From positions 434,001 to 498,000 of the forward strand of contig NZ_NBXA01000026.1 in assembly GCF_003399625.1 (NCBI RefSeq): DNA of 64,000 nt, in the 5' to 3' direction. The translations under genes were made by a program, and so were the position numbers. The stretch comes from Subtercola boreus (GTDB lineage Bacteria > Actinomycetota > Actinomycetes > Actinomycetales > Microbacteriaceae). Positions within the stretch are counted from its first letter, which is position 1. Every line of letters begins with the position of its first letter. The notes below the pieces were generated by a model that worked only from the letters and a program-made list of their open reading frames with translations, had not been told where the DNA came from and made no database searches. This document shows positions 20,367-24,308 of this stretch, piece after piece.

Positions 20367-20981
20367 TCAGGCATCACCGGCAGGTGCCCTGAGGCTCGCC
20401 TCCGCCGACAGGCGGTCGACGAGCTCCAGGCCACGCTCTGCCCACTCGATCTCCGTGCGCGCGCGCTCCACCAGACCCTCGTAGGTGAAACGCTTGAAGG
20501 CGATGGTTCGGGCATGCTCCGATTCGGGAGTCACCGCCAGCCGACGGACGAGCATCGGATTGTCGACGGCATCGATCCGTGTGAGCTCCCGCTCCCACTG
20601 GCCGAGCTCGTCCCGCCACTGTTCAATGTGCCGCAGGAGGAAGATCGTGGCCTGCTCAGGCGACGTCGACTCGAGGTACGCGGCCCTCAGGTGGGCCGGA
20701 TCACGAACGCGCTGGTACTCGAGGGGGCTGTTCATCCAGTCGAGGAACGCCGCGTCGCCGGTTTCCGTGACGTGGTAGAGGATCCGGGTGCCACGCACGC
20801 CGCGAACCTGCTCTTCGGGCTCGATCAGCCCGTCGACGTGCATCCGCCGGAGCTCCGGGTAGATCTGGGAGTCCGGCGCGTGCCAGACGTGCCCCACCGA
20901 CACAGAGAACTGCTTCTGCAGGTCGTAGCCCGACAGCGGCCCTGTGCGCAGCAGGGCAAGAAGCGCGTACCTCAAACTCAT
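20367..20981 (-). CDS. PadR-family regulator, VanR-like
   Basis: PadR regulator of 204 residues starting at the canonical position: MSLRYALLALLRTGPLSGYDLQ, recognition-helix region DSQIYPELRRM, wing with TRILYHVTETG, then a long coiled dimerisation arm (about residues 90-190). It is the last gene of the metF-purU-ligM operon. PadR-type VanR represses vanillate genes in Corynebacterium, binding inverted half-sites with a 4-nt gap. A palindrome of that design (24289-24308) sits at the head of this operon, so this protein is the likely repressor of vanillate-type demethylation. Confidence 0.85.
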   Translation of the reverse strand: MSLRYALLALLRTGPLSGYDLQKQFSVSVGHVWHAPDSQIYPELRRMHVDGLIEPEEQVRGVRGTRILYHVTETGDAAFLDWMNSPLEYQRVRDPAHLRAAYLESTSPEQATIFLLRHIEQWRDELGQWERELTRIDAVDNPMLVRRLAVTPESEHARTIAFKRFTYEGLVERARTEIEWAERGLELVDRLSAEASLRAPAGDA

Positions 20982-21022
20982 ACGCGCTTCCTCCCTGCTG
21001 GCATGCTGTCGATCGGCGCTGC

Positions 21023-22429
21023 CTATTCTCCGGTATAACCGGTGCGCCAGCCGCCCTGGTACGTCGCCCGCGCCACGGTGGAGTAGGGCACCGGGCTCAC
21101 GACGGCACGCACCTCGAACTGCTCGTGCGGTTCGACGGCGGCCTTGCTGGTGCCGCCGTTCGGCTCACCCCAGATCACCTTCAGTTCGGTTCCCTCCGGC
21201 ACACTCGGATCGATGGTCGCCAGAGAGAGCGCCCGGCGTTCGTTCGCGCTGTAGCCCGTGAACATCGAGAAGCCGACCACCGTTCCGTCGGAATCGACGA
21301 CGGAGTCGTAGTTCGCCGATCCGTAGTTGGCCAACGGGAGGTCGAAGAACTTGTAGGCCGGGCCGTCGACGTTGAAGAGGGAGCTGAAGATCGATGTCAT
21401 GTCTTCGGCGTCCCACGCCAGCGTCACCTTCTTGCGCTGCGAGGCCGGGTCCATCTTCTCCAGCGCGTCACGACCGATGAAATCGTGGTCGAACTTCACG
21501 AACGATCCGTAGCCCAGCTCCCACGGCGTGAGGTAGTAGTCCTCGATGTTGTCGGAGACGAACGACCCGGCCAGCGTTCCCGTAGCCTCGTAGCTGTCGG
21601 CGCCGAGCCACTCGCGGTAGCCGCGCTCGGCCTCACCCGAGTAGACGGCGGGCAGCGGTGACGGGATCCAGCCCGATTCGAGCGTGTTCGAGGGGTACGC
21701 CCTCGAGCCGACGGGCACGAGGCCGAACTCGGCGCCCGCGTTCACGATGGCGGCGTGGATGCGATCGTGGTCCTCGTACGGGCCCCAGATCTCGAGACCG
21801 GGCGCCCCGGCCATACCGTGCCTCAGCGTACGGACGGTCGTCCCGTCGATCGTCATCGTCGACATGTTGAAGAACTTCAGCTGCTCGAGCGGGCCACCGT
21901 TGAGTTTCTCGATGACCTGCCAGGCGGCCGGGCCCTGGATCTGGAAGCGGTAGTAGTTGCGGTGCACTTCGTGTCCGAACGGACGGGATGGCGAACGCCG
22001 GTCGACCTCGATGTCGAGGTTCTGGTAGCCGCCCGTCTCACCGTGGTAGAGCAGCCAGTTCGCCGCGGGCGAGCGGCCGACGTAGACGTATTCGTCTTCG
22101 GCCTCGCGGAACAGGATGCCGTCGCCGATCACATGCCCGCCGGCCGAGGTGGGAACGTACTGCTTGGCCTTGTTCACCGGGAAGAGGGCCGTCGAGTTGA
22201 TGGCCGTGTCGGAGATCAGCGAGAGGGCGTCGGATCCGCGCAGGAACAGGCTGTCCATGTGGTGCGACTGGTCGTACAGCACGGCGGTCTTCCGCCAGGC
22301 GGTCTGCTCCTTGATCCAGTTCTGGAAATCCGCCGGAACGACGGGGTAGATGTACGACCCGATCTGCGAGTTTCGCAGCAGGTCGACAGGATTCGTCGCC
22401 TCGATGAGGTGTTGCAGGTTTTCGGTCAC
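21023..22429 (-). CDS. ligM: Tetrahydrofolate-dependent aromatic O-demethylase (vanillate/3-O-methylgallate type)
   Basis: GcvT-fold enzyme of 468 residues, closely resembling sphingomonad LigM (about 471) along its whole length: [79 protein letters not shown] and [12 protein letters not shown]. LigM moves the methoxy methyl group of vanillate to THF, giving protocatechuate and 5-methyl-THF. The GTG at 22429 has AGAGAGG nine bases upstream and gives the family length. It is preceded in the operon by purU and metF, which dispose of the methyl group. The preferred methoxy substrate needs testing. Confidence 0.92.
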
Positions 22430-22479
22430 GGGAGTGAACCTCTCTGTTCGGTCGTGCGGTGTGGGTGTCGGTGTGCTTG

Positions 22480-23352
22480 TCAGAAGACGATGGTGTGCCT
22501 GTCGTGGCGGATGATCCGGTCCTCGGCATGCCATGTCACCGCTCGGGAGAGCACGGCCCGCTCGACATCGGCACCGCGACGCTGCAGATCTCCGACGGAG
22601 TCGGCATGCGTGACCCGAACGACGTCCTGCTCGATGATCGGACCCTCATCGAGGTCGGCGGTGACGTAGTGCGAGGTGGCACCGATCAGCTTCACGCCCC
22701 GTTCCTTCGCCTTGCGGTAGGGGCCGGCGCCGACGAAGGCCGGCAGGAAGGAGTGGTGGATGTTGATCACCGGAACGCCGACCCGCTCGAGAAAGTCCGG
22801 GGAGAGGATCTGCATGTACCGGGCGAGAACGATGAAATCGACGTTGCCGGCGAGCAGGTTCACGATCTGCGTCTCGGCCGCCGACTTGTCCTCGCCCTGC
22901 GAGGGCACGTGGAAGAAGGGCACCCCGAACGACCGCACCTCCTCGGCGGTGGTGGTGTGGTTCGAGATGACCATGGGCACGGTGACCGGCAGCTCGCCGC
23001 GGCGGTGGCGCCAGAGCAGATCGAGCAGGCAGTGGTCCGACGTCGAGGCCAGCACCGCCATCCGCTTCGGTATCGACTGGTCGGTCAGGGTCCACGACAA
23101 CCCGAACGGCGAGAGCGTGGCTTCGAGATCCGCCTCGATGTCGGGGAATGCCCCCGCGAGATCGACGCGGGTGAATTCGACGCGCTGAAAGAAGGCGCCG
23201 CCCTCCGGGTCGTCCGAGTACTGGGCGAGGCTCACGATGTTGCCGCGGTTGCGAAGCACGAGACTCGCGACCGCAGAGACGATGCCCGGCTTGTCGGGCC
23301 CATGCACGATCAGGCAGGCATGATCCATCAGGGCCGGGGTGTGCAGCGTCAC
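22480..23352 (-). CDS. purU: Formyltetrahydrofolate deformylase
   Basis: Enzyme of 290 residues that hydrolyses 10-formyl-THF to formate and free THF. It has an N-terminal ACT domain (about residues 12-85, [13 protein letters not shown]) and a formyltransferase-fold domain with [12 protein letters not shown] and [11 protein letters not shown], the latter containing the catalytic His. Start GTG 23352 overlaps the metF stop (GTGA); ATG 23328 is a possible alternative. In this operon it would regenerate THF for LigM after the methyl group is oxidised to the formyl level. That replaces the formyl-THF synthetase (LigH) found beside ligM in Sphingobium. Confidence 0.93.
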
Positions 23353-24230
23353 AGCGCCGTGTCCGCACTGAACGCGCGAGCCCAGTCGGCCGTCGCCTTC
23401 AACCCGCCGAACGTGTAGAAGTGCAGGCTCACCGGCCCCGACCCCGCATCCTCGGCGAGCAGATCCCCGAGCTCGGAGACGAAACGCTCGGGCCCGGCGG
23501 TGCCCATCAGATTGGTGAGGGAGAAACCGTACTTCTTGACGATCATCGTGTTCGCACCCACCCCGAACCGCCGCGCGAAGCTCAGCAGCCGTTTGATGCC
23601 CGCGGGACCCGGCGTGCCGACACGGATCGGCGTGTCGATACCGCGGGTGCGCACCTCCCGGATCCACTCGACGACGGGAGTGGTGTCGAACGCGAACTGG
23701 GTCAGGATGGTGGCATCCAGACCCTGCTCGGAGAGCGCCTTCGACTTGTCCTCGAGCGCCTTCCACAGAACGTCGCCCGGGATGTCGGGGTGCCCTTCGG
23801 GGTAGCCCGCGATGCTCACCTCACGCACTCCGTACTTCTGCAGCACCCCGGAGCGGATGACCGCGAGCGAGTCCTCATACGGACCCTCGGGTATTGCAGG
23901 GTCACCGCCGACCGCGAACACGTGCCCGGAGGCGCCGATCTCCTGCAGGGCGCCGAGGTACTCCTCGAGTTGCGCCTCCGACGAGAGCCGCCTGGCCGAG
24001 ATGTGCGGTACGGGAACGAAGCCGGCCTCGATCACCGCCTTCGAGGCAGCAATGCGCATGGCGAGATCCTCGTTGCCGAGAAAGGTGACATTCACTTTCG
24101 AGCCGGCCGGAATCGCGTCCTTCGCCTCGAGCAGGCCGGGTATGTCCTTGCCCGTCATTTCGAGTGAATAACCGGCCAGGAGGGCAACGGCCGCCGTGCT
24201 GTTCTGGCCTGGGGAAGGGGATCGAGACAC
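23349..24230 (-). CDS. metF: Methylenetetrahydrofolate reductase family protein
   Basis: TIM-barrel flavoenzyme of 293 residues interconverting 5-methyl-THF and 5,10-methylene-THF. Motifs include SLEMTGKD near residue 22, VNVTFLGNED, VFAVGGDP, SIAGYPEGHP and the C-terminal LHFYTFGG. It resembles the MetF branch found with ligM genes rather than the usual housekeeping MetF, and here it would run toward methylene-THF. Start GTG 24230 has AAAGGA upstream. It is the first gene of the metF-purU-ligM-padR operon, directly behind the palindromic operator. Confidence 0.88.
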   Translation of the reverse strand: MSRSPSPGQNSTAAVALLAGYSLEMTGKDIPGLLEAKDAIPAGSKVNVTFLGNEDLAMRIAASKAVIEAGFVPVPHISARRLSSEAQLEEYLGALQEIGASGHVFAVGGDPAIPEGPYEDSLAVIRSGVLQKYGVREVSIAGYPEGHPDIPGDVLWKALEDKSKALSEQGLDATILTQFAFDTTPVVEWIREVRTRGIDTPIRVGTPGPAGIKRLLSFARRFGVGANTMIVKKYGFSLTNLMGTAGPERFVSELGDLLAEDAGSGPVSLHFYTFGGLKATADWARAFSADTAL

Positions 24231-24288
24231 AGGTCGTCATCCTTTGCGAAGTCGGATATCAACGCTTCGTTGCGTTGCCCTCCTGAAT

Positions 24289-24308
24289 TTACCTATGTCC
24301 ATAGGTAA
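24289..24308. promoter_or_regulatory. Palindromic operator of the O-demethylation operon
   Basis: TTACCTATGTCCATAGGTAA: perfect 8-bp arms with a 4-nt gap, 58 bp before metF and 48 bp before the divergent pseudogene start. Half-site spelling and the N4 gap resemble the VanR (PadR) operator of Corynebacterium glutamicum, and a VanR-like gene closes the operon. Confidence 0.72.

Follow-up and report, generated by a model that had tools for sequence, protein, structure and literature searches.

A predicted vanillate-inducible, tetrahydrofolate-dependent O-demethylation operon with a VanR-like PadR regulator in Subtercola boreus

Here we report the computational analysis of a 64,000-nucleotide stretch of Subtercola boreus DNA (hereafter referred to as the window; NCBI RefSeq assembly GCF_003399625.1, contig NZ_NBXA01000026.1, positions 434,001 to 498,000), which carries on its minus strand, within window positions 20,367–24,308, the genes metF, purU, ligM and padR in this order, as read from the coordinates and translations of the open reading frames. 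These genes very probably form a vanillate-inducible operon for tetrahydrofolate (THF)-dependent O-demethylation; we infer the enzyme activity, effector, induction and direction of flux from sequence comparisons. The components of such a pathway are known from other bacteria, and what appears to be new is the VanR-type control of a LigM demethylase through a defined operator, along with the presence of PurU where the host genome shows no detectable formyl-THF ligase. The predicted VanR-type control of LigM is the best-supported of these new points.

The stop codon of metF and the start codon of purU overlap by 4 nucleotides (GTGA), and ligM and padR are separated by 41 base pairs (bp), a spacing that suggests a single transcription unit for all four. 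The most likely start of ligM is the GTG at position 22,429; the homology searches with this gene used 21,023–22,435, two codons beyond that start. An earlier note on this DNA had described a compact metF–purU–ligM–padR operon and had suggested looking for the same order in actinobacterial genomes. All four genes were borne out, and the search was run on the best 80 of at least 573 confirmed LigM loci, that is, on close relatives only, nearly all of which bear names that we take to be Micrococcales and which share up to 88% identity with the window LigM. The same order on one strand recurs in 45 of the 80 loci (one of them, L035, with a decayed purU), and, judged by this recurrence, the four-gene arrangement is not due to chance. 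Other loci carry metF and purU with padR absent within 3.5 kb (4/80), metF only (11/80), padR only (2/80) or none of the three (1/80), and some of the padR-less, metF-only, padR-only or empty loci end at a contig edge.

The assignments of the individual genes, also made in that note, are supported by family models and structural matches. The window LigM scores 863.3 bits on the NCBI equivalog model NF047885 (LigM; cut-off 580), and its closest solved relatives are the LigM structures 5tl4 (719 bits) and 5x1i, aligned over residues 6–465, consistent with a THF-dependent demethylase of the LigM type. The tyrosine in its SRAYPSN motif aligns with a tyrosine of the LigM structures, which we take to be the catalytic Tyr247. 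An identity as the syringate O-demethylase DesA was rejected (NF047633, 604.8 bits versus a cut-off of 800). Four relatives encode extra LigM/DesA-like proteins (L007, 1,784–3,208; L004, 14,978–16,360; L019, 4,186–6,036; L069, 5,619–6,974). All four score higher on the DesA model than on the LigM model, yet under the DesA cut-off; those of L007, L004 and L069 also miss the LigM cut-off, and that of L019 lies just over it (580.5 versus 580). These proteins possibly serve another substrate class.

The regulator at the end of the operon, a PF03551 protein, has as its best solved match 6lg2 (149 bits, residues 1–191 of 204), with 5z7b nearly equal and the next match, 5x11, at 69.5 bits. The entry 6LG2 is Corynebacterium glutamicum VanR (CgVanR) with vanillic acid, in which R148, Y103 and Y168 make the polar contacts and V29, M133, H142 and L145 also belong to the pocket (PMC7090077). 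In the alignment to 6lg2 the equivalents of the polar residues in the window PadR are R147, Y102 and Y167. All three are retained by 63 of 64 neighbouring PadRs; the remaining one (L036) is cut by a contig end. The structural match and the conserved triad support the proposal that a VanR-like PadR closes the operon.

A palindrome with the sequence ACCTATG-TC-CATAGGT lies upstream of metF. The earlier description of a perfect palindrome before the operon stands for its 7-bp arms and not for its 2-bp centre, TC, which is not self-complementary. Exact matches to ACCTATNNNNATAGGT number one in the window and one in the 4.12-Mb host assembly, both being this palindrome. The putative operator fills the spacer between the −35 and −10 elements of a predicted promoter. 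The region 20,000–24,700 contains two promoter-like sites, compared with a mean of 0.3 in shuffled sequences; the second, at 22,539–22,511, lies ahead of ligM. Sixty-one loci have a padR and place metF ahead of ligM, with the region upstream of metF readable; 59 of them match the site at 10 or more of its 12 specified positions. The PadRs of the other two (L070 and L083) are divergent, at about 40% identity. Markov shuffles of the approximately 360-bp regions upstream of metF matched 10 or more positions in 34 of 7,300 cases (73 upstream regions, two of which, from L048 and L058, are truncated at a contig end). In 62 aligned operator contexts the flanks resemble TKGACA at −35 and TAANNT at −10 in a fixed register, so steric repression would be the simple reading.

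A weaker extra half-site, AGAGGT, occurs at 24,314–24,319, 13 bp upstream of the operator, and also in loci such as L004, L005 and L008, which suggests a second, overlapping dimer site. A wider VanR regulon was considered and rejected, as the two other one-mismatch sites in the genome (L101 and L102) did not look regulatory. At up to two mismatches the pattern gave 9 matches in the host genome and its backwards control 21, and at up to three mismatches the window held 3 matches, the level expected by chance.

The earlier note had also contrasted the demethylase chemistry of this operon with that of the Rieske-type VanAB system under a related regulator. The conserved triad and a similar operator in Rhodococcus support this contrast. 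On three Rhodococcus plasmids a VanR-like PadR (50–52% identical) is encoded divergently from a ring-hydroxylating oxygenase and a PDR/VanB-type reductase, and all three PadRs keep R148, Y103 and Y168. The vanR–vanAB intergenic region matches the site at 11 of 12 bases in two of the three plasmids (reached in 2 and 0 of 2,000 shuffles). A single control, a Pseudonocardia PadR (46% identical, with no annotated van neighbours), keeps R148 and Y168 and lacks V29 and Y103, and its region has no site (best 7/12, reached in 1,293 of 2,000 shuffles). The published CgVanR operator is reported to share the CTA-N6-TAG core. Because a like site precedes ligM in 71 of 79 relatives and separates vanR from vanAB on two of these three Rhodococcus plasmids, one sensor–operator pair probably governs two unrelated demethylases. 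More tentatively, and with more doubt than belief, we consider that a single vanillate-sensing module of VanR and ACCTAT-N4-ATAGGT may have persisted in Actinobacteria, with the demethylase under it exchanged between VanAB (yielding formaldehyde) and LigM (yielding methyl-THF). In that case vanillate might also gate part of the one-carbon economy in hosts such as this one, whose sole recognisable MTHFR is the operon MetF and in which no formyl-THF ligase was found.

The remaining enzymes point to the fate of the methyl group. The window MetF falls under the cut-off of the canonical methylenetetrahydrofolate reductase (MTHFR) equivalog TIGR00676 (34.8 versus 293.7 bits) and over that of the broader Pfam family PF02219 (34.4 versus 24 bits), and its best solved chain is 7xg9 (282.7 bits), which we take to be the reverse MTHFR of Sphingobium sp. 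SYK-6. The SYK-6 enzyme oxidises 5-methyl-THF to methylene-THF (PMC12585457). The operon PurU passes TIGR00655 (349.5 versus 285.95 bits), comprises PF01842 (ACT) and PF00551 (formyltransferase) domains and matches the solved structure 3w7b. No match to formyl-THF ligase (PF01268, LigH) was found in the host draft assembly (4.12 Mb, 95 contigs, 98.73% complete), and of the two exits from formyl-THF searched for in the host, ligase and PurU, only PurU is present. The genome has one FolD, which adjoins a second purU away from the operon; this housekeeping copy and the operon purU are 57% identical. In a PurU tree (66 of 87 rows kept after removal of copies and short pieces) the operon copies stand mostly apart from the housekeeping copy, without a clean single clade (6 label changes); any PurU in a LigM locus was labelled 'operon', and the tree includes a duplicate window row (L002) labelled 'other'. 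The earlier proposal that PurU frees formate and recycles THF without making ATP is strengthened, because formyl-THF ligase was not found in the host while FolD was found; the ATP-yielding LigH route likewise appears unavailable because the ligase was not found. The host genome has no VanA_C match indicating a Rieske-type VanA. Genes for both subunits of protocatechuate 3,4-dioxygenase (pcaG, alpha; pcaH, beta) score over their cut-offs elsewhere in the genome, and an FdhD gene is present. With FolD, these genes accord with a release of formate by PurU.

Together, these features suggest the following mechanism. Without vanillate, a PadR/VanR dimer on ACCTAT-N4-ATAGGT within the −35/−10 spacer would block RNA polymerase, and padR, as the last gene of the operon, would be under its own control. 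Vanillate, possibly derived from vanillin by the product of an adjacent aldehyde dehydrogenase gene, would bind at R147, Y102 and Y167 and, by analogy with CgVanR, release the repressor from its operator. LigM would then transfer the vanillate methyl group to THF, giving protocatechuate and 5-methyl-THF, as its homology predicts. MetF, running in reverse, would oxidise 5-methyl-THF to methylene-THF, the single distant FolD would convert this to formyl-THF, and PurU would hydrolyse formyl-THF to formate and THF. Protocatechuate would pass to the pcaGH product encoded elsewhere, and formate may go to formate dehydrogenase.

Several observations weigh against parts of this interpretation. The first set concerns the effector. 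In the window PadR, V29 and L144 of the hydrophobic pocket are kept and the equivalents of M133 and H142 are E132 and N141; M133 is replaced in all 64 neighbouring PadRs, and 62 of the 63 that can be read at H142 differ there too. Because of these replacements, vanillate is a likely but not the sole possible effector, and another methoxy-aromatic acid could serve. In Agrobacterium fabrum, the LigM-type gene of the Atu1418–Atu1420 cluster, which encodes a vanillate demethylase with MetF, is under the GntR regulator Atu1419, which responds to methylene-THF, and PurU is not mentioned in the part of the source available (PMC7797058); the demethylase therefore does not fix the class of effector. 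The same enzymes could thus have 3-O-methylgallate, syringate or a similar methoxybenzoate as their physiological substrate and inducer, in line with the dual vanillate/3-O-methylgallate specificity of the LigM family, the altered pocket positions and the extra LigM/DesA-like paralogues near some relatives' loci. We consider this unlikely, given the DesA score under its cut-off, the conservation of Y168, which contacts the hydroxyl/methoxyl groups, and of R148 and Y103, which contact the carboxylate, and the fact that only one of three GCV_T matches in the host is LigM, the other two reading by eye as gcvT and YgfZ-like.

The second set concerns the link between regulator and site. The third Rhodococcus plasmid has a weak site (9/12, reached in 111 of 2,000 shuffles). 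In 79 loci the sequence available ahead of ligM spans 400 bases or more, and 71 of these have the site at 10 or more of 12 bases no further than 3.5 kb upstream of ligM (59 of 63 with padR and 12 of 16 without). Over such a span some sites may be due to chance, above all those of L066 and L067 (at about −1,325). Of the eight loci without a site, L048 and L058 end before the region upstream of metF is reached. The idea that padR-less loci lack the site, which the view upstream of metF had given (7 of 8 readable), was overturned by the 12 of 16 with a site upstream of ligM. In six loci (L071, L072, L073, L075, L076 and L080) the site lies 70–132 bp before ligM, metF is not directly before ligM, and no padR was found in the fetched stretch. 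The site therefore tracks the promoter of the ligM transcription unit rather than a neighbouring padR, and the two do not always occur together; for these six loci an unlinked VanR is implied. The same loci give some room to the view that PadR does not control the operon and that the palindrome serves something else. This view is highly improbable in the light of the uniqueness of the exact site in the host genome, its presence in 59 of 61 readable padR-linked operons and the occurrence of a site of the same type in the vanR–vanAB intergenic region of two of the three Rhodococcus plasmids.

The third set concerns PurU. Seventeen of the 80 loci have metF–ligM–padR without purU (in L068 with padR on the opposite strand), and in Kocuria sp. 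36 (L035) a decayed purU lies between metF and ligM at 7,520–7,920; PurU is thus dispensable for some hosts. The absences in the S. boreus genome rest on a draft assembly, formyl-THF ligase is found in 45 of 50 sampled relatives, and some PurU is found in all 50. The ligase is absent with 4 of 22 purU-bearing operons and 1 of 28 purU-less ones, in genomes of unstated completeness (22 of 49 purU-bearing loci were sampled, including the decayed L035 and L069, in which purU lies downstream, and 28 of 31 purU-less loci, with L033, L052 and L077 excluded). This trend is too small to claim that operon purU is tied to loss of the ligase.

The direction of one-carbon flow could also be read differently, with the operon mainly supplying biosynthesis and PurU merely balancing folate pools, as proposed for LigM and MTHFR of SYK-6, in which LigM and S6MTHFR reportedly stand in for a glycine cleavage system that the organism lacks (PMC12585457). 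In the host, PF02219 matches only the operon MetF, as would fit such a role, and no canonical MTHFR was found. A PF02219 match above 150 bits is, by our own count, also absent in 25 of the 50 sampled relatives, which have SYK-6-type or weak PF02219 matches only. By contrast, the host has a gcvT (PF01571) beside open reading frames that, on inspection by eye, look like gcvH and gcvP, so methylene-THF should be obtainable from glycine, and, with a second purU beside folD elsewhere, the extra operon purU fits disposal of surplus one-carbon units. We regard a mainly biosynthetic role as quite improbable and retain vanillate demethylation with release of formate as the preferred interpretation.

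The ligM–metF–ligH system of Sphingobium sp. SYK-6 includes the closest structures for LigM and, if 7xg9 is its MTHFR, for MetF, and the same demethylation chemistry is expected; the window differs in having PurU, a VanR-like PadR and, in its host, glycine cleavage genes and no ligase match. The C. glutamicum VanR–vanABK system shares the PadR subfamily and the three polar vanillate contacts, and its repressor is released by vanillate (PMC7090077 and PMC8358305). However, CgVanR governs the Rieske oxygenase VanAB, whereas the window padR ends a THF-dependent operon, and the C. glutamicum operator lies downstream of +1 (PMC7090077), whereas the window site lies in the −35/−10 spacer.

Genes for the three enzymes also occur together elsewhere. 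A ligM–metF–purU cluster on Agrobacterium tumefaciens pAt encodes a protein passing the LigM cut-off (854 bits), and differs in gene order and in an adjoining MarR gene, with no PadR annotated in the stretch shown. A Rhodococcus opacus plasmid has the same annotated trio plus FolD (aminomethyltransferase–metF–purU–folD) in another order, with no PadR annotated in the stretch shown; a LigM of 66% identity is encoded roughly 4 kb from the metF-adjoining aminomethyltransferase, a putative LigM-type protein. Sphingobium TomTYG74 has on a plasmid a gcvT, whose product shares 52% identity with the LigM of the window, and metF–purU–folD, again in another order and including FolD, with an IclR gene nearby and no PadR annotated in the stretch shown. 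A sphingomonad operon, dmt–metF–dhc–purU, reportedly constitutive, is reported to unite a THF-dependent demethylase, metF and purU in one transcription unit (Yao et al. 2016); its substrate, dicamba, differs. The novelty of PurU in place of LigH is weakened by the metF–purU pairs beside LigM-type genes in Agrobacterium, Rhodococcus and Sphingobium. A LigM-type gene has been noted in an actinobacterial genome bin (PMC9296663), and similar gene sets are said to occur in many bacteria in the genome survey of Yu et al. 2025 (as cited in PMC12585457). Neither a metF–purU–ligM–padR operon nor a VanR-controlled LigM appeared in titles or abstract openings among the open-licence PMC matches listed.

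Further genes lie next to the operon (Table 1). The adjoining aldehyde dehydrogenase passed no NCBIfam cut-off, and no vanillin dehydrogenase was among its PDB matches. A MetE-like methyltransferase of the PRK06520 family (17,010–18,122) also adjoins the cluster, with relatives in 2 of the 80 LigM loci (L046 and L064).

Table 1. Predicted features of the operon and its surroundings (window coordinates)
Feature	Position	Strand	Predicted role	Evidence
metF	23349..24230	-	SYK-6-type 5,10-methylene-THF reductase, predicted 5-methyl-THF oxidase	PF02219 34.4 bits; 7xg9 282.7 bits
purU	22480..23352	-	10-formyl-THF deformylase, ACT and formyltransferase domains	TIGR00655 349.5 bits; 3w7b
ligM	21023..22429	-	THF-dependent vanillate/3-O-methylgallate O-demethylase	NF047885 863.3 bits; 5tl4 719 bits
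padR	20367..20981	-	VanR-like PadR repressor, final operon gene	PF03551; 6lg2 149 bits; vanillate contacts
Operator	24291..24306	.	Putative VanR-type operator ACCTATGTCCATAGGT	Two inverted 7-bp arms flanking a 2-bp centre
Promoter	24286..24314	-	Predicted promoter	-35 TGGACA 24314-24309, 17-bp spacer, -10 TAAATT 24291-24286
Aldehyde dehydrogenase	18825..20306	+	Candidate vanillin dehydrogenase	At least 65% identical aldehyde dehydrogenase in 20/80 relative loci
MarR-family regulator	18154..18693	+	Adjoins aldehyde dehydrogenase gene	Relative in 7/80 loci

Vanillate is derived from lignin, and the exact operator and effector pocket defined here can now be tested. LigM, the reverse MTHFR, PurU and the VanR promoter would be ready parts for lignin valorisation. 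The operon would exemplify non-orthologous enzyme replacement in a clear form, with the regulator conserved, and it predicts that many strains of Microbacterium, Sinomonas, Arthrobacter and Brevibacterium would use vanillate by methyl transfer, without an oxygenase or formaldehyde.

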